This document shows, one piece after another, positions 27,029 through 35,303 of a stretch of DNA of 39,658 nt. Numbering within the stretch: the stretch's first letter is position 1; the number at the start of each line of letters is the position of its first letter. The position numbers were made by a program, and so were the translations under genes. The stretch comes from Pseudomonadota bacterium (GTDB taxonomy: Bacteria; Desulfobacterota; DSM-4660; Desulfatiglandales; B25-G16): the NCBI GenBank assembly GCA_030603345.1, contig JAUVXZ010000005.1, forward strand, positions 1 through 39,658, given 5' to 3'. The notes under the pieces are model-generated. The model was not told the DNA's origin. It worked only from the letters and a program-made list of their open reading frames with translations, and ran no database searches.

Positions 27029-27409
27029 TTATTTCAGCCGCAACTCATCATAATAGCAGACGAATGAGATTCGTTGATATTATCTTGAAATATGTGTTTC
27101 CTATGGATATTTTTTCGCTGCCAAGGTTAAATCCGATCTCTTTTCCACGTGCTTCCTCCTTGTTGTCCTATTTATCCAATTTGCCCGATTCCCTCACTCA
27201 ATGGAGACAAATCTTTCAAGCATGCCGGTTCGGCCTGTCAAGCTAAATGTGTATTCCTGTTTTTACACACCTTTTCCTCCATGCTATTGTCCTGCTCTCG
27301 AAAATTCCGCGTATCCCTTTACAAGATGAAAACGGAGTGATATTAGGAATTAGACAAAAATTTCACCTATCTCTTTAACGATTTCGCCAAGGGTTTCGGA
27401 GGGATCATC
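27029..27409. other. Spacer upstream of the MoxR operon
   Basis: About 380 bases without recognisable genes; short frames at 27064-27246 and 27149-27340 are not protein-like. The promoter of the MoxR operon should be here but I cannot assign it. Confidence 0.4.
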
Positions 27410-28348
27410 TTGAATTTCGATTTGTGTGAAAGAATCGTAGAGAACATATCTAAAGTGATTGTGGGTAAAGACCGTTCTATTGAACTGCTGCTCGTGGCCC
27501 TTCTGGCGGATGGTCATGTGCTGATAGAGGATGTTCCGGGGCTAGGGAAAACCTTAATGGCCAAATCCCTGGCGAGAAGTATTGGCGGATCTGTTAAAAG
27601 GGTGCAATTTACCCCAGACCTATTGCCTGCGGATATTACGGGTTTTAATGTCTATAATCAGCAAACCGGCCAGTTTACATTTCAACCCGGGCCGGTTATT
27701 ACCAATATTCTTCTGGCTGATGAGATTAACCGCACTATTCCTCGCACCCAGGCCAGCCTGCTGGAGAGCATGGAGGAGCGCCAAGTAACCGTGGATGGCA
27801 AAACCTTTCCCCTTCCTCATCCTTTTTTTGTCATGGCAACCCAGAATCCCATTGAACTGGAAGGTACATTCCCCTTGCCGGAGGCGCAGCTGGACAGGTT
27901 TCTCCTTAAAATAAAGCTGGGGTATCCCGAGAAAGACGAAGAGATTTCGATACTGGAGCGCTTTCAAGAGGAAAACCCCCTGCTTGAGCTCGAGGCCGTG
28001 GCAAATCCTGAACAGATTACCGAACTGCAACAGGCACGGAAAAAAGTTCGTATCTCCTCTCCGGTACGGCAATACATAACAGACATTGTGCGGGCCACTC
28101 GCGGTCATAAGTCCTTGCGTTTCGGGGCCAGCCCACGAGGATCTCTCGGTTTAATGCGCACCGGTCAAGCACTGGCAGCCCTGCGAGGGCGTGAATATGT
28201 GCTGCCCGATGATATCAAGTATTTGGTGCGGCCCGTTCTCGCTCACCGATTGATTCTCAAAGAGGAAGAGCGGTTGCAGGAAAAAAAACAAGAGTATTTT
28301 CTAGAGGACATCATAAACCAGATACCAGTGCCTGCTCCCAGCGGGTAA
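27410..28348 (+). CDS. MoxR family AAA+ ATPase
   Basis: TTG start with GGAGGG six bases upstream; no better start exists. The 312-residue protein has the MoxR AAA+ set: Walker A EDVPGLGKTLMAKSLA, the RVQFTPDLLPADITG loop, Walker B ILLADEINRTIPRTQASLLE, sensor 1 FFVMATQNPIELEGTFPLPEA and the arginine-rich QLDRFLLKI. The C-terminal helical lid ends near residue 305. MoxR proteins act as chaperones that insert metal or assemble complexes, usually paired with a DUF58 protein, which is the next gene one base downstream. First gene of a three-gene operon. Confidence 0.95.
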   Translation: MNFDLCERIVENISKVIVGKDRSIELLLVALLADGHVLIEDVPGLGKTLMAKSLARSIGGSVKRVQFTPDLLPADITGFNVYNQQTGQFTFQPGPVITNILLADEINRTIPRTQASLLESMEERQVTVDGKTFPLPHPFFVMATQNPIELEGTFPLPEAQLDRFLLKIKLGYPEKDEEISILERFQEENPLLELEAVANPEQITELQQARKKVRISSPVRQYITDIVRATRGHKSLRFGASPRGSLGLMRTGQALAALRGREYVLPDDIKYLVRPVLAHRLILKEEERLQEKKQEYFLEDIINQIPVPAPSG

Positions 28349-28349
28349 A

Positions 28350-29555
28350 GTGAGGGTTATGGAGGCACAGGAACACAGATTGCCGACCCTCTTCATTATC
28401 CCACTGATCCAGTTTTTTGTGGGATTGCTGCTTTTTGTAGCCTTACTGCATGGCCAACGGGATCTCACTGTGTTGGCTTTTCTGGTTTTAGGTATGATGA
28501 TCGCCGCAAGACTCTGGAGCAGGTTAAGCCTTTCCGGCATAAAATCCTATTCAACAGTTGACGCGCAGAAGGTCTTTCCAGGAGAAACGCTCACCCTAAA
28601 AATGAGTGCTGAAAACGCGAAGCTTCTTCCGGTCTGGCTCCAGATGAAGGTGCCTGTGGATGGCGCACTGCATCCCTCCTCTAGGGAGACGACATTCGCA
28701 AAGGAAAGTGGCCTGTTGTGGTACCAAAGGGCGCAGTTCCAGTGGGAGTTAACTGCGCAACGGAGAGGAGTGCATGAAATAGGGCCGACCCAGGTGAAGG
28801 TGGCAGATCTCTTTGGGTTTTTCCCAAGGGAGAAAGAGGCCCAAGGGTCTCTCCATATCATTGTCTATCCACGACTCGTGCCGCTGAAACCCATTTCTTT
28901 ACCGAGGAGGGATTTGTTTGGTGTTCCAGGAGCCAAGAGCCCTGTGCGGGATCCCATCTACATACTCGGTACCAGGGATTACCAACATTGGCAGCCTGCC
29001 AGATATATTCACTGGAAGGCGAGTGCACGCCACAACCGGCTACAGGAAAAAATCTTTGAGCCTTCAGAGCAGGAGAAGGTACTGCTCGTCGTTGAGGTTG
29101 ATCAATTCGCACAAAATAGTGCGGGGGAGAGCTTCGAGCGCACCCTTGAAGTAGTGGCATCTTTAGCTGTTCGATTGGACCAGAGGGGTTACGCTTTGGG
29201 CTTGGTGACCAATGGTGTTTTTGTGGGAGGAGGCCCCACAATCCTTCCTATAGCAAGAGGTCCGCAGCAGTTGCCTGGTATTCTGGAGGCTCTCGCAAGG
29301 CTGCACATGGAACCCAATGGGGATCTCGTGGATATATTACGCAGTGGGTTAGGGTTGCCCTGGGGGGTGAGCTGTGTTCACTTCTCGTATGATCAGGATG
29401 GGGCAAGCCTCGCTACAGAGGGGTACTTTTCGCACCGGAAGGTACCCGTGGTGTTTGTGGTGAGCCAGCCCCGTTCTATCTCGGGAGAGGATAAAGCTCG
29501 GGGTAAGGTTTATAGCCTAGATGACATCTGTATCAAAAGGGCAGAGAGGAAATGA
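28350..29555 (+). CDS. DUF58 domain-containing protein
   Basis: Two N-terminal membrane helices (about residues 14-30 and 40-57), an immunoglobulin-like beta segment (VFPGETLTLKMSAENAKLLP), then the DUF58 signature GTRDYQHWQPARYIHWKASA (R-x-Y, W-K) with a vWA-like stretch VLLVVEVDQFAQNSAGESFE. The start is GTG 28350, one base after the MoxR stop; ATG 28359 is also possible. DUF58 proteins partner MoxR ATPases; the exact role is unknown. The gene overlaps the following DUF4129-type gene (ATGA at 29552-29555). Confidence 0.9.
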   Translation: MRVMEAQEHRLPTLFIIPLIQFFVGLLLFVALLHGQRDLTVLAFLVLGMMIAARLWSRLSLSGIKSYSTVDAQKVFPGETLTLKMSAENAKLLPVWLQMKVPVDGALHPSSRETTFAKESGLLWYQRAQFQWELTAQRRGVHEIGPTQVKVADLFGFFPREKEAQGSLHIIVYPRLVPLKPISLPRRDLFGVPGAKSPVRDPIYILGTRDYQHWQPARYIHWKASARHNRLQEKIFEPSEQEKVLLVVEVDQFAQNSAGESFERTLEVVASLAVRLDQRGYALGLVTNGVFVGGGPTILPIARGPQQLPGILEALARLHMEPNGDLVDILRSGLGLPWGVSCVHFSYDQDGASLATEGYFSHRKVPVVFVVSQPRSISGEDKARGKVYSLDDICIKRAERK

Positions 29556-30979
29556 AAAGCAAAAGAGCAGGCTTACTGTCTTTGGCCAGCGGGGGCATGG
29601 AACTGAGCTGGCTCTATGCGTGGGCCACCTTTATTATGACCTCCCTACTCCATCGCCCTTTTCCCTTGCCAGAGGCAATTGGCACATTTGCACTGGCGGC
29701 AATGCTTACCTCTGTTGTCCAGGGAAGGGGTTGGCGGGTGATCCTGATTTTAGGGCTCCAGGTGTTCGGTTTTCTAATCACCACCTCAAGGATTGTATAT
29801 GTGTTCAACTACTGGTCCTATCCTTTTGTAAGCAACGGGTGGCTCGTGGAGTTCCTCAGCAGACCGAGAGATCCACTGGAGTGGTTTATCCTCGCTGTTA
29901 TCCTTTTCTTTGCCCTCTTGTTTTGGGTGGGGGGAGTGACTTTAGCCCGGAGGTCAACAGCGTACCTCACCATTTGCACCCGCTTTGATCTGGGAGTGGC
30001 GGCCTTTTTTTGTCTTCTACTGATAAAATTACTTTTGCTGGTAAAAGGGGGTATCAAGGTGCCGGATCCCATGGCCGAGCTATTGCTGTTTCCATTTTTC
30101 GTGTTCAGTCTTTTGGCTATCGGCATGGCCCGGAATCGGAGTACTGCCCAGAGGGATTTTCTCTCAGGCTACCAGGGGATTGGTGTGATCGTGAGTTTTA
30201 CTGTGGTCGTTCTTTTATTTGGGACAGGCCTGGTATTGCTTTTTTTGCCCTACCTACGTTTGGTTGCCGAGATGGGGTATGGAGTGTTGAAGAGTGCGGC
30301 TGGACCATTAGAACCCATCTTGGTAACTATTTTGCGGTTTCTCTTTTTCCATAATCGAAGTCGACCGGAGACAGCATCTCCTTCATCTGGGGGAGATGAA
30401 ACAGAATTGGTGTCTTCGGCTGAGAGCAGCTGGTGGATGGAGCTAATGGAGAAAATATTCGGCTGGGGGTTCTTGGGCCTGGGTGGGTTGATCACACTCA
30501 TTATTTGTGGGTTGGGCGTGTGGTACCTATTTAGGTGGCTCTTCTCAAGGACCTCTATCAGCGAAAAGAAGCAGATCCAATGGGGTCTGATTCTATTGTG
30601 GGCCGCGAGACTGCGGGCAGTTCTTTTTCTCTTCTGGGGGAAAATAGTCAGAAAAGCGAAAGGCTACAGAGACGCAGCTCAGCTCTATAGTGCCCTGCTC
30701 GCATGGGGACACCATAGTGGTCTACCACATTTCTTAATTGACACCCCTACAGAGTATGGACTGCGTCTGAGGCGTCGGTTTCCCCCACTGAATAGAGAGG
30801 TAGAGGTGATAATTGAGGCCTTCAATCAAGAGGTGTACGGCGAAACAATGCTCGATGAGCGGCAATTGACCATGGCCAGGCTCGCATGGCGAAGACTGCG
30901 CAGCCCTCTCTATTGGCCTTCCAGGCTGAAGTCCTGGTTTCTCCGACCAGGTGAGAGAGAAGAGAGGGACGTCTATTGA
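29552..30979 (+). CDS. Membrane protein with DUF4129-like C-terminus
   Basis: A 475-residue integral membrane protein: about seven hydrophobic helices in the first 230 residues, a soluble acidic loop (~270-300), a further helix pair near 305-340, and a cytosolic C-terminal domain with a GYRDAAQLYSALLAWG segment, an EYGLRLRRRFPPLNREVEVI segment and the FNQEVYGE box seen in DUF4129 proteins. Genes of this type usually stand after MoxR and DUF58 and next to or fused with a transglutaminase-like (TgpA) protease; no transglutaminase catalytic triad is visible here. Last gene of the operon. Confidence 0.75.
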   Translation: MKSKRAGLLSLASGGMELSWLYAWATFIMTSLLHRPFPLPEAIGTFALAAMLTSVVQGRGWRVILILGLQVFGFLITTSRIVYVFNYWSYPFVSNGWLVEFLSRPRDPLEWFILAVILFFALLFWVGGVTLARRSTAYLTICTRFDLGVAAFFCLLLIKLLLLVKGGIKVPDPMAELLLFPFFVFSLLAIGMARNRSTAQRDFLSGYQGIGVIVSFTVVVLLFGTGLVLLFLPYLRLVAEMGYGVLKSAAGPLEPILVTILRFLFFHNRSRPETASPSSGGDETELVSSAESSWWMELMEKIFGWGFLGLGGLITLIICGLGVWYLFRWLFSRTSISEKKQIQWGLILLWAARLRAVLFLFWGKIVRKAKGYRDAAQLYSALLAWGHHSGLPHFLIDTPTEYGLRLRRRFPPLNREVEVIIEAFNQEVYGETMLDERQLTMARLAWRRLRSPLYWPSRLKSWFLRPGEREERDVY

Positions 30980-31503
30980 ATTATAGAAATCTTACCGTGG
31001 TATTACGCCGTGGTATTCATTCCTCGCTCAACCATTTTCTACATTGCATTGCAATTAACCAACCACAAAGTCCAGATACCTTGCCGAGACATTTAATATG
31101 GAAAAAATGAATATCTGATAAGAATATCAAAGCCTCAGGCTATGATCTGAATCCTTGCGTGTCGTATATCCAACTGAATCATGCGATTCCCACCATTAAC
31201 TAATTTCATTTAATGCCGATTGAAACCTGAAATTGCCAGCACCAAGAAAACCATGCTTATGTTCCCTCGCAAATAGTTCAATCGCAAAGTAGCTTTTGGT
31301 TTTCTTCTTACGGAAGATTGTATTTTGAACTAAACAGTTTTGTCACAAGAAGAAGCAGGCCAAAATCAAGTTGACCAAGCAGAAGTATAGGGCCTGATTA
31401 TTTTGAGCATATGAAAAGGATATCAGAACATCTGGGCGGGGTCTCAAATTCCGGATAATAGCAGATATTTCAGAGCGAGATAGGATTCGATTACAGTGCT
31501 AAT
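30980..31503. other. Non-coding spacer carrying the left direct repeat
   Basis: Contains one copy of the AbiE-flanking repeat (31067-31150); otherwise nothing I can identify. AT-rich compared with the preceding operon. Confidence 0.5.
31067..31150 (+). repeat. Left copy of an ~80 bp direct repeat flanking the AbiE cassette
   Basis: Matches 33652-33735 in the same orientation at roughly 85% by eye, with an identical 24-base core at 31108-31131. The core itself holds GAATATC twice, six bases apart. See the matching entry. Confidence 0.75.
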
Positions 31504-31669
31504 TTGTTCATTAATCTGTATTGTTCATTCATTGTGAACAATCATTTATTGTGAACAAAAATTTGTTTATCCTTAGAAATAAAATTATTAGGATAATATA
31601 ATAAGATAGTTATTGACATTTGTTCAGAAAATAATTATGTTCACAAAAAATGAACAGGTGCAAATAGCG
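31504..31669. promoter_or_regulatory. Array of TTGTTCA/TGAACAA operator-like motifs
   Basis: Copies of TTGTTCA or its complement lie at 31504, 31521, 31535 (complement), 31552 (complement), 31620, 31638 (TGTTCA) and 31651 (TGAACA). The copies at 31521-31541 and 31638-31656 form inverted repeats with seven-base spacers. The cluster straddles the promoter of the AbiE operon, suggesting binding sites for its own antitoxin, as known for AbiE systems. Confidence 0.6.
31613..31641 (+). promoter_or_regulatory. Promoter of the AbiE operon
   Basis: TTGACA at 31613-31618, 17 bases, TATGTT at 31636-31641, inside the operator array. Transcription would start near 31648, so the ATGs at 31613 (TTG) and 31637 are in or before the promoter and not in the message. 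Confidence 0.55.
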
Positions 31670-31690
31670 AACAAAAAGGGTAAGAATGCG

Positions 31691-32722
31691 ATGAGAACCA
31701 GAACCGCGGAAAACAAAATTCTACGTACAGCCTTGGAAAAGCTCGAAAAGACAACTGAATTAACAGCTGAAGCGTATCCTGAGGTTGATCCCGAGGGCCC
31801 AGATGCAGTGATTCGAATCACTTGGCAAGGTATGGAGTGGCATTTTGCAGCTGAGGTTAAATACACACTCACACCAGCAATGATCGGTGCAGCTGTTCAA
31901 CAACTACGGAGGCATATTGCAAAAGGCATTCTTGTTACAAAATATGTAACCCCGCAGGTAGCTGACATCTTAAAAGAAATGGGTACTCCATTCCTCGACG
32001 CAGCTGGCAACGCATACCTAAACGAGCCCCCTCTATTTGTTTTCATCAAAGGCAACAAGCCTCCTGAGAGAGATACCGAGAAGCCTCCAATCCGTGCTTT
32101 CCGTCCGACGGGACTACAGGTTGTATTTGCCCTTATATGCAATCCAGACCTAGAAAGGGCCCAATACCGGGAAATTGCCCAAGCTGCAGACGTCGCCTTA
32201 GGCACTGTAGGGTGGGTCATGCGGGATTTGAGACAATTGGGAAATCTGGTTGAAATGGGGAAACGGGGTCGGCGGCTAATTCAGAAGGAGAAACTGTTGG
32301 CGCGGTGGGCAACGGCGTATCCAGAACAACTAAGGCCTAAGAAGTTACTAGGGACATTCAAAGCCGCCAATACAGATTGGTGGAAGGAGACTGAGCTTCC
32401 CGGCCCAGAAACGTATTGGGGAGGAGAAATCGCAGCAGCCAAGCTCACACAACACTTGAAGCCGCAGACGGCGACGATCTACACCCGCGAACTCAAAGTG
32501 CTTTTTGAATGGCTAATAAAAAATAGAATAAGACAAGACCCGGATGGAAATATCGAGATCGTGAGGAAGTTTTGGAAATTCGAACCTGATTGGGAATACC
32601 CCAACTTGACTCATCCCGTCCTAATATACGCGGATTTGCTCGCTACTGCTGATGCTAGAAACATTGAGACAGCAAGGATAATCTATGACAAAGAAATTGC
32701 TCGACTTCTCAGGGAAGATTGA
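31691..32722 (+). CDS. AbiEi-like type IV antitoxin (nuclease-like domain plus winged helix)
   Basis: Start chosen at ATG 31691 because the promoter lies upstream and overlaps earlier in-frame starts (31613, 31637); a weak AAAGGG precedes it. The first part has an ITWQGMEWHFAAEVKYTLTP strand pair with EVK, reminiscent of the PD-(D/E)xK fold, then a LDAAGNAYLNEPPLFVFIKG segment. The middle carries a helix-turn-helix (REIAQAADVALGTVGWVMRD) and a WGGEIAAAKLTQHLKP region. This matches the AbiEi_2 type of type IV antitoxin. It should repress its own operon. The stop overlaps the toxin start by 38 bases. Confidence 0.8.
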   Translation: MRTRTAENKILRTALEKLEKTTELTAEAYPEVDPEGPDAVIRITWQGMEWHFAAEVKYTLTPAMIGAAVQQLRRHIAKGILVTKYVTPQVADILKEMGTPFLDAAGNAYLNEPPLFVFIKGNKPPERDTEKPPIRAFRPTGLQVVFALICNPDLERAQYREIAQAADVALGTVGWVMRDLRQLGNLVEMGKRGRRLIQKEKLLARWATAYPEQLRPKKLLGTFKAANTDWWKETELPGPETYWGGEIAAAKLTQHLKPQTATIYTRELKVLFEWLIKNRIRQDPDGNIEIVRKFWKFEPDWEYPNLTHPVLIYADLLATADARNIETARIIYDKEIARLLRED

Positions 32723-33578
32723 CAGATTCACCATTGAGCTTTTTGAGAACATAGCAAACGTAGCTGAATCTATGAGCGCTCCTTTCTTTGTTGTCGGTGC
32801 AACAGCACGAGACACTATTCTCAAATACGGCTACGGCATCGAGACAATCCGAGCCACTAATGACATAGATCTGGGCGTGAAAGTCTCTGATTGGGATCAG
32901 TATATCAAGCTAAGAGAGGCCCTGGTTGCAACGGCAAGATTCGAACCCACAAGGGAGCCCCAAAGGCTGAAATATCAGGGAAGTGTATTGATTGATATCA
33001 TCCCTTTTGGCGCGATTGCAGATCCGGGTGGATCATTCTCCTGGCCTCCGAATCACGAAGTCGAAATGAACACGCTCGGATTCGACGAATCATATAAACA
33101 TTCTTTGACAGTTAGACTGAAGAGAGAGCCGGATCTGTATGTCAAATTCGCAAGCCAAGCTGGCTTAGCTCTCATGAAACTGATTTCATGGGATGATAGG
33201 CATCCTGAAAGGAGTAAGGATGCTAAGGATTTAGGACTTTTAATGCGCAGTCACATTGATGCGGGAAATGAGGAACGCCTCTTTAAAGAAGAAGTAGACA
33301 TAATCGAGATTCTCCGAGAAAGTGGAAGTTATGACTACACGAGGGCCAGCGCGAGATTGCTTGGCCGGGATATTTCGGCGATTGCAAATCCCGAGACAAG
33401 GGAAAGGCTTCTGAAGATATTGGAAAAAGAGACTGGCGAGAGAGACCGCTACAGGCTTGTGGAGGACATGAGAGACATTTACGCGGCAGCCAGCTCAGAT
33501 TTTGGAGAGAACCTGGCCCTGCTCGAAGAACTCAAGGCCGGCATTCTAGAAGGACCTAGAATTGCTCGGAAGGGTTGA
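32685..33578 (+). CDS. AbiEii/AbiGii-type nucleotidyltransferase toxin
   Basis: Start ATG 32685 with AAGGA seven bases upstream, inside the end of the antitoxin gene. The nucleotidyltransferase signature is complete: FFVVGATARDTIL (glycine motif), then TNDIDLGV with the DxD metal pair, and the third acidic residue in SVLIDIIPFG. A helical C-terminal part (about 150 residues) follows. AbiEii toxins are thought to transfer NTPs onto targets such as tRNA and cause growth arrest, often protecting against phage. The adjacent AbiEi-like gene is the cognate antitoxin. Confidence 0.85.
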   Translation: MTKKLLDFSGKIDRFTIELFENIANVAESMSAPFFVVGATARDTILKYGYGIETIRATNDIDLGVKVSDWDQYIKLREALVATARFEPTREPQRLKYQGSVLIDIIPFGAIADPGGSFSWPPNHEVEMNTLGFDESYKHSLTVRLKREPDLYVKFASQAGLALMKLISWDDRHPERSKDAKDLGLLMRSHIDAGNEERLFKEEVDIIEILRESGSYDYTRASARLLGRDISAIANPETRERLLKILEKETGERDRYRLVEDMRDIYAAASSDFGENLALLEELKAGILEGPRIARKG

Positions 33579-33651
33579 ATGGGGCCAATCAATCGAACCA
33601 AGCTTGTGTTGTGTATTAAAGGGAAAACCATAAGAGCGAGACATCTGAATC

Positions 33652-33735
33652 AAAGTACAGATTTTGCCAAGACATTCAATATAGAAACAGTGAATATCTG
33701 ATAAGAATATCAAAACCTCAAGCTATGAGATGATA
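33652..33735 (+). repeat. Right copy of the direct repeat flanking the AbiE cassette
   Basis: Same orientation as 31067-31150; the shared 24-base core is at 33691-33714. The spacing between cores is 2583 bases and encloses exactly the operator array and the two AbiE genes. Confidence 0.75.
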
Positions 33736-33795
33736 TGGACCCAGATTCTAACTGAAAAACACAGATCCTCAGGGTCTTTATGCATACCATATTTC

Positions 33796-34099
33796 AACCG
33801 CAGATTAACAGCAGACCCAGGGACATTCTCCCCTGCTTTTGGACCTTCAAGCAATCAATTTTAACCGCGGACACACGCACATATACACGGACGTTTTGTT
33901 TGGCCGACCCTGGCCAAATAAAAGACGCATTCGCTTCACGAAATGTTCATGCTGCAGAGAAGGATACAGAGGCATGGCTTACCTATGCCCACTCCGTCCC
34001 GGCGGGACGAGAGTCCCTTCGGGTGAGGGCATGACGGTCAATATCCGGCCACAGTCGGCCGGACATTTGTCGGCGGTAGTCTGCGTCGATCTGCGGTTT
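33796..34099. repeat. ~300 bp element with inverted ends (AACCGCAGAT type)
   Basis: The left end AACCGCAGATTAACAGCAGA (33796) faces an inverted right end GTCTGCGTCGATCTGCGGTT (34079). Internal hairpins include a TCCGGCC/GGCCGGA pair (about 34042-34062) and a CGTCCCGGCGGGACG palindrome (about 33995-34011). The ends are of the AACCGCAGATTAAC-GCAG kind seen repeatedly in deltaproteobacterial intergenic regions. No transposase. Confidence 0.6.
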
Positions 34100-34139
34100 A
34101 TTGATTTGGGAAGGAGATATATGGAACAGCCGGATAAAT

Positions 34140-35303
34140 CTACCCCAGCAATTCAAAGGCAACGCGGCAATATGTCTCAACACCTGTCAATAGCACATCT
34201 TCATTCAAGTCAAATTTCGGGTTATGAAGGGGGGCACATCCCTCACGCCCCACACCGAGGAAGAAAAAGCACCCTTTCGACTTTTCCAGGTAGAATGCCA
34301 TATCCTCACCACCCATGGTCTGCTCAGGTTCAATAACCCGCTCTTCGCCAACCACATCTGCTGCGCATTTGCGAACCACCTCAGCCATGGATTCATCGTT
34401 TAGCAACGGCGGATATCCTTGCGTATATTTCAATTCGTAATCTGCACCCATTGACCCACACACGCCACGGACAATCTTTTCAACGCGCTCGGGCCAGGAA
34501 CTCCAGATGTCTCGATCAAACGTCCTTGTGGTACCGCACATTTCGGCTTCCCCAGGGATAACATTAAAGGTGGTGCCGGCTTGGAAACTGCCCACGGTGA
34601 CGACCGTTGGGCTCAAGGGATTCATCTGCCGGCTTGCAATGCGTTGTAGCGCGTTAACGACCTGGGTACCCACCTCAAGCGCATCGACGCACAGATGAGG
34701 CATGGCGCCATGGCCCCCTTTCCCAATAATTCTAATGTCAAAGCGATCCATGGCCGCCATGAGATACCCAGCCTTCACTCCTATGCTTCCCTCTGGTATG
34801 GCAGGCCACACATGACACCCTACGGAGAAATCCACGTGGGGATTTTCCATAACACCTGCCTCGATCATGGGTTTGGCACCCCCAGGGCCCTCTTCAGCAG
34901 GCTGAAACAAGAACTTGATGTTCCCATTCAGCTTATCCTTAACCTTGTTCAGAATCGTTGCAGCACCCAATACCATAGACATGTGGCCGTCATGGCCACA
35001 TGCATGCATTGCCCCCTCGTGGGTTGAAGCAAAAGGAAGGCCTGTTGCTTCGGTAACAGGAAGGGCGTCCATGTCGGAACGGATCATAAGGGTTTTGCCG
35101 GGACGCGTGAGGCTCATCAAACCCACGACACCAGTTTGTGCAATTCCCGTCTGTACTTCAAACCCCTGTCTCCCTAAGTAGTCCGCTACATAAGCAGAGG
35201 TTTTCTTTTCCGTGTAAGCAGGTTCCGGAATCAGATGTAGGTCTCGACGCAATTTAGTGATAAGGTCCTTATGTTCACGCACGAGTTTTGTAAAATCCAT
35301 CAT
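34140..35303 (-). CDS. M20 family amidohydrolase (N-acyl amino acid / aminoacylase type)
   Basis: Start chosen at 35303 (MMDFTKLVREHKDLI), with AAGGG eight bases upstream; the open frame extends 45 residues further to 35438 but that part is not family-like. M20D motifs: RRDLHLIPEPAYTE, RSDMDALPV, the metal-binding HACGHDGHMSM and FQPAEEGPGGAKPMIEAG, GKGGHGAMPH and MGGEDMAFYLEKSKG. All expected metal ligands (Cys, His, Glu-Glu, His) are present. Likely cleaves N-acyl amino acids or similar amides in the cytosol. It follows the SSS symporter and small membrane protein on one strand, so the operon may import and hydrolyse an amide. Confidence 0.9.
   Translation of the reverse strand: MMDFTKLVREHKDLITKLRRDLHLIPEPAYTEKKTSAYVADYLGRQGFEVQTGIAQTGVVGLMSLTRPGKTLMIRSDMDALPVTEATGLPFASTHEGAMHACGHDGHMSMVLGAATILNKVKDKLNGNIKFLFQPAEEGPGGAKPMIEAGVMENPHVDFSVGCHVWPAIPEGSIGVKAGYLMAAMDRFDIRIIGKGGHGAMPHLCVDALEVGTQVVNALQRIASRQMNPLSPTVVTVGSFQAGTTFNVIPGEAEMCGTTRTFDRDIWSSWPERVEKIVRGVCGSMGADYELKYTQGYPPLLNDESMAEVVRKCAADVVGEERVIEPEQTMGGEDMAFYLEKSKGCFFFLGVGREGCAPLHNPKFDLNEDVLLTGVETYCRVAFELLG

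Follow-up and report, generated by a model that had tools for sequence, protein, structure and literature searches.

We analysed a window of 39,658 nucleotides, which is contig C54 of the draft genome G000 (3.33 Mb, 330 contigs). A two-gene operon of the AbiE type lies there between two direct copies of a short repeat. The features of the locus are as follows.

30980-31066, forward strand: left extension of the full repeat unit, lacking to the left of the right copy
31067-31150, forward strand: left direct copy of the repeat core
31151-31504, strand not applicable: non-coding left arm of the cassette, about 350 bp between the left copy and the operators
31505-31673, forward strand: operator array, two sets of TGTTCA-TGTTCA-TGAACA-(T/C)GAACA with spacings of 17, 13 and 17 bases
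31691-32722, forward strand: AbiEi-type antitoxin gene (PF09952 AbiEi_2, 143.8 bits; 343 aa from the ATG)
32685-33578, forward strand: AbiEii-type nucleotidyltransferase toxin gene (PF08843 AbiEii, 29.3 bits for a cut-off of 22.5)
33652-33735, forward strand: right direct copy of the repeat core
33736 to about 33813, forward strand: right extension of the full repeat unit, lacking to the right of the left copy

The AbiEi-family antitoxin gene is directly followed by the AbiEii nucleotidyltransferase gene, which overlaps it by 38 bases, and this is the arrangement by which AbiE systems are recognized. We read the operon 31691-33578 as a putative AbiE-type (type IV) toxin-antitoxin pair, the activity of which we infer from its sequence. 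AbiE systems are further characterized by phage resistance and by a toxicity that is neutralized with no contact between the two proteins, which would be predicted for this pair as well. Upstream of its ATG, the abiEi frame stays open as far as a TTG at 31613 within the operator array, and the ATG at 31691 has a counterpart ATG in the homolog of the genome G047 (84% identical); the AbiEii proteins of the window and of G047 are 82% identical. The TGTTCA/TGAACA inverted repeats are predicted operators of the AbiE type, and related motifs were found upstream of the homologs in G047, G008, G043 and G070. The cassette is flanked on the left by a MoxR-DUF58-DUF4129 gene set and on the right by an M20 peptidase gene and a sodium:solute symporter gene. 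Between the copies, family matches were obtained for two genes only, AbiEi and AbiEii, with no mobility gene, transposase or integrase, as the original prediction had said of the integrase. That the copies enclose exactly the operators and the genes was right for these elements, but the non-coding left arm lies inside as well. This arm contains, at 31172-31469, another intergenic repeat family that is 79% like intergenic DNA in G006, and it is missing both from the empty site of G004 described below and from the AbiE locus of G047.

The two copies are 2.58 kb apart. Gapped comparison aligned 31066-31145 with 33651-33728 in the same orientation at 86% identity over 80 bp (E = 1.9e-22, the two 1.5-kb flanks being compared with each other only), and the ungapped 70-mers 31081-31150 and 33664-33733 are 87% identical. 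The longest exact run common to both is 24 bases (TGAATATCTGATAAGAATATCAAA), and the direct repeat was thus recovered at the positions first proposed, with its identical core. The repeat core contains an imperfect inverted repeat, with arms of about 15 bp on either side of a centre of about 12 bases. A reading as an RNA hairpin was dropped, since the consensus fold is without any compensatory pair, and an Rfam scan of 30900-34200 gave no match. A viral origin of the repeat was rejected because its pattern found no match in viral contigs.

How often such pairs occur was estimated from a 907-kb sample of the genomes G000, G004 and G047, a control devised after the pattern had been noticed. Pairs of at least 60 bp and at least 80% identity, 1-6 kb apart, were retained. 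Twelve direct pairs fitted in the whole sample; 3 of 7282 random 2-kb windows were bounded by one. Intergenic regions were also taken in pairs with 1-3.5 kb between them, and 4 of 382 such pairs were bounded in this manner, at the highest rate in G000 (3/56, two of them overlapping each other). Direct pairs are rare in the sampled DNA, and the match between the two copies of the window lies well above the chance level.

The original prediction proposed to look in relatives for a site that lacks the cassette and has one repeat copy, and the sister genome G004 has such an empty site. This genome matches positions 27125-31145 of the window at 97.3% and positions 33651-34297 at 94.6%, and the two alignments overlap on one 80-bp repeat copy (L027 9895-9974), where no AbiE operon is present. 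The region of the empty site (L027 9324-14320) is gap-free; a scaffold gap stops the alignment on the right, and synteny is seen up to position 34297. On the aligned sequences, the cassette is a present/absent unit with boundaries inside the repeat. A second empty site in G001 was considered and rejected, its copy sitting between other genes. G002 was unusable for defining the ancestral state, since similarity at its locus breaks off just past the DUF4129 gene; synteny with G002 is lost at position 30951, and no outgroup retains the cassette site.

The repeat copies that bound the cassette are each part of a longer unit. In G001 (L034, 76%) and G004 (L119, 74%), single copies at loci unrelated to this one align with positions 30956-31145 along 188 bp. 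Positions 33664-33813 align with a copy that stands alone at another unrelated locus, in G002 (L032, 81%), and shorter stretches match in L069 and L118. The single copies at L034 and L119 carry both extensions, whereas those of the window carry one each, the left copy the left one and the right copy the right one. The half-units on the two sides are complementary, and therefore the operon interrupts a once-intact repeat unit.

Searching at the DNA level and with a profile built from 15 copies, we detected six copies of the repeat in G000, 11 in G004, two in G002 and one in G001. In G003 no copy was convincing, and four other genomes of the family have weak relics. A pattern scan with one genome per species (G004 being CP070673.1, bin73, and G002 being Meg19_1012_Bin_230) gave one further genuine copy beyond the genus, on a contig labelled Planctomycetes DG_23 (LIZR01000154.1, L069). 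This contig also carries other intergenic repeat families of the genus and is possibly misbinned. An Arcobacteraceae match from the same scan was discounted, its flanks having no similarity to the repeat. As judged from these searches, the repeat is a low-copy dispersed intergenic family almost restricted to the genus. More generally, the intergenic DNA of the genus (G000-G004, for example at L035 and L010) is pieced together from many dispersed repeat families, which follow one another in varying order.

Elsewhere, the copies mostly adjoin unrelated genes, among them a histidine kinase (contig C174), a transposase (C27), RsgA, a CNNM/CorC-type transporter and aconitase X. The copy on contig C94 of G000 (L010, 1579-4803) has a DarT/NADAR pair on one side and a DRT-like reverse transcriptase on the other, and that on contig C149 (L035, 603-7628) is surrounded by a ParB-methyltransferase gene, tandem tyrosine recombinases and a KAP-NTPase/FGE-sulfatase fusion. 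A second and different AbiE pair, AbiEi_4/AbiEii, is preceded in G004 by a copy of the repeat at a distance of about 200 bp (L119), where the repeat unit is intact and present on one side only. This pair (L119 5445-7246, at 1.842 Mb in G004) is found beside an unusual ATP synthase gamma gene, and its AbiEii frame is interrupted by an internal TAA. The stretch between two copies of G004, one at 290.7 kb and one at 298.0 kb, is about 7 kb long and includes a gene set read as a TRAP-type transporter. No further pair of copies brackets a small cassette, and the repeat as a regular boundary of cargo was dropped for that reason. The suggestion that it is a dedicated cassette repeat or attachment site did not hold, given a dispersed family whose other copies are mostly next to unrelated genes.

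We then compared the operon with its relatives. No homolog of the window AbiEi was found in four congeners, two of these genomes being only 55-68% complete. The closest homologs are in G047, from another family (84% amino-acid identity), and then in G008 (62%), and DNA similarity to G047 is restricted to positions 31548-33568 (87%). From this distribution, the operon is most likely foreign and horizontally acquired, which forms part of the best explanation proposed below. The AbiE operon of G047 is bounded by 117-bp direct repeats of 88% identity (L063 7598-7714 and 9878-9994), and that of G008 by 70-bp direct repeats of 93% identity (L043 4-73 and 2390-2459), so that the idea of a repeat-bounded cassette extends to AbiE relatives in two other genera. 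The bounding repeats of G000, G047 and G008 surround homologous operons and are mutually unrelated in sequence; therefore they are host DNA and not cassette ends. The repeat of G047 has no full copy beyond its own two in the genome, and that of G008 is dispersed in G008. The more distant relatives G070 and G061, which have full flanks, show no bounding repeats, and three further relatives are cut by contig ends in this comparison. Among still more distant AbiE-type loci, one of 25 short loci (L049) has a direct repeat pair, of 149 bp at 79%.

Other genes were seen in similar surroundings. On contig C33 of G000, a lone AAA_14/DUF4143 gene (3342-4562 of L230) lies within a 73-bp direct repeat of 88% identity (L230 3178-4757) that is unrelated to the repeat of the window, and on contig C7 of G047 two direct repeats of 69 bp and 94% identity enclose a HEPN-domain gene (L211 18389-19577). 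Upstream of the AbiE operon of G047, the stretch 7366-7597 of L063 resembles, from its translation alone, the remnant of a PIN-domain (VapC-like) gene.

The best overall explanation, to which we give about an even chance, is that the operon entered, and can leave, by recombination between dispersed repeat copies. An incoming DNA piece or circle bearing the operon and a diverged repeat copy would recombine with the resident copy, a hybrid copy would be left on each side of the operon, and a cross-over between the two copies around it would bring back the empty site with its one copy. We infer a gain in the window lineage and a RecA-type route. One of the movements originally envisaged, in which the cassette is lost or gained as the copies recombine, fits these data, and the other, insertion by a site-specific process, was not borne out. 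Repeat recombination is favoured because the right core resembles copies elsewhere (93-95% identity) more than its partner (88% to the left core). Moreover, the two cores differ at 7 of 60 columns, and the probability of at least seven differences is 0.002-0.03 if the cores diverge as much as the flanks do from G004 (2-5%). The copies thus do not look like a fresh duplication, and their sequences favour recombination of diverged copies over a recent target duplication. The single copy of G004 best fits a hybrid, left-like and then right-like with a switch near TTGCC, at few informative sites. This copy is only 83-88% like either core of the window; therefore the core either changes rapidly or is converted between copies, and such conversion blurs the hybrid test. 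An old duplication followed by conversion might also have given copies as diverged as these. Two observations sit badly with repeat recombination: the bounding repeat of G047, with no further full copy, fits it poorly, and the relatives G070 and G061, free of bounding repeats, count against it.

Alternatively, a process that may be linked to replication or repair could have duplicated about 70-120 bp of host target DNA upon insertion, the copies diverging since and the dispersed repeat being merely an intergenic target. We consider this rather unlikely, although several points speak for it. The repeats around the homologous operons measure 80, 117 and 70 bp and are unrelated in sequence, the G047 repeat has no other full copy in its genome, and the AAA_14/DUF4143 gene of G000 lies within a 73-bp repeat that is again a different one. 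For restriction-modification (RM) systems, target duplications "in the order of 100 bp" have been described (PMC3874152). What it explains less well is that the window copies are 86-88% identical while the flanks are about 2-5% from the empty-site genome, that the right core is nearer to copies at other loci than to the left core, and that the bounding repeat of G008 is itself dispersed. A cassette that predates the split of G000 and G004 and was deleted in G004 by recombination between the copies is less probable still. Such a deletion would be expected to leave the same left/right hybrid copy, as G004 fits, and the copies are indeed more diverged than the flanks of the two species; however, AbiEi homologs are missing from all four congeners (with the incompleteness given above), and the complementary half-units show an operon that interrupts a formerly intact unit. 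Parsimony and this interrupted unit favour gain in the window lineage over loss in G004.

That the repeat core is the site of a tyrosine recombinase encoded elsewhere, for example by the tandem pair beside the C149 copy, is very unlikely in our view. The imperfect palindrome of the core and the two tandem phage-integrase-family genes about 270 bp from that copy are in its favour, but the palindrome shows no compensatory changes, the recombinase homologs of G004 are not near repeat copies of G004, linkage to a recombinase is seen at one copy only (C149), most copies are without a cargo pair, and the AbiE relatives lie within unrelated repeats. Finally, intergenic repeats might flank the operon by chance, or the contig might be misassembled across repeats, given intergenic DNA crowded with dispersed repeats and a draft in 330 contigs. 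This is the least probable reading, since G004 lacks precisely the repeat-to-repeat stretch and bounded windows are rare (3/7282); besides, a 24-base exact identity is presumably too short for contig joining at usual k-mer sizes.

Among known systems, the minimal mobile elements of Neisseria are cassettes bounded by conserved genes and exchanged by homologous recombination without mobility genes, and Correia repeat enclosed elements have terminal inverted repeats. The cassette resembles both in having no mobility genes and in occurring in a genus rich in small intergenic repeats, but it is bounded by two short-repeat copies instead of conserved genes, and terminal inverted repeats are not seen at it. 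With no transposase between the copies and bounding repeats that are direct and not terminal inverted, it does not have the form of a transposon, IS or MITE. In pdif modules and integron cassettes, toxin-antitoxin pairs are bounded by short recombination sites. A toxin-antitoxin pair between short repeats is alike, but no dif- or attC-like core was seen by eye, no integrase lies between the copies, and the AbiE loci of different genera have no common repeat, homologous cassettes being bounded by unrelated ones. AbiE operons are known on mobile elements (PMC3985639). As in that type IV toxin-antitoxin and abortive-infection system, the operon has a bicistronic AbiEi-AbiEii organization, inverted-repeat operators upstream and a sporadic, horizontal distribution; it differs by its AbiEi_2 (PF09952) antitoxin and by a toxin little above the AbiEii cut-off.

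The closest precedent comes from RM genes, for which insertion with target duplications was deduced from genome comparison (PMC3874152, PMC1643837), in Helicobacter pylori by Nobusato et al. 2000, as related in PMC1643837 and PMC3874152. In both cases, a small addiction-type module without transposase is present or absent among close relatives, a direct repeat of about 100 bp surrounds it, and a single copy marks the empty site, here in the close relative G004; the target sequence also differs among insertions of the same cargo (G000, G047 and G008). In contrast to the RM insertions, an AbiE toxin-antitoxin pair is carried here, the sequence found twice is a member of a dispersed family, and the copies are 86% identical with independent affinities. 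We found no report of AbiE or other toxin-antitoxin operons inserted with long target duplication in the part of the literature covered.

Altogether, the feature is genuine and the event is of an already described sort. More tentatively, and with doubts that outweigh our confidence, AbiE pairs, the AAA_14/DUF4143 gene and the HEPN gene may move across the order as autonomous cassettes of 1-3 kb, with direct repeats of about 70-120 bp, into unrelated intergenic targets by a shared transposase-free process. If true, this would extend the RM insertion precedent to toxin-antitoxin operons in this order of Deltaproteobacteria. The broader question is how chromosomal toxin-antitoxin and defence modules travel without a surrounding mobile element, and it is testable here because of the documented empty site and the two further AbiE occurrences bounded by unrelated repeats.
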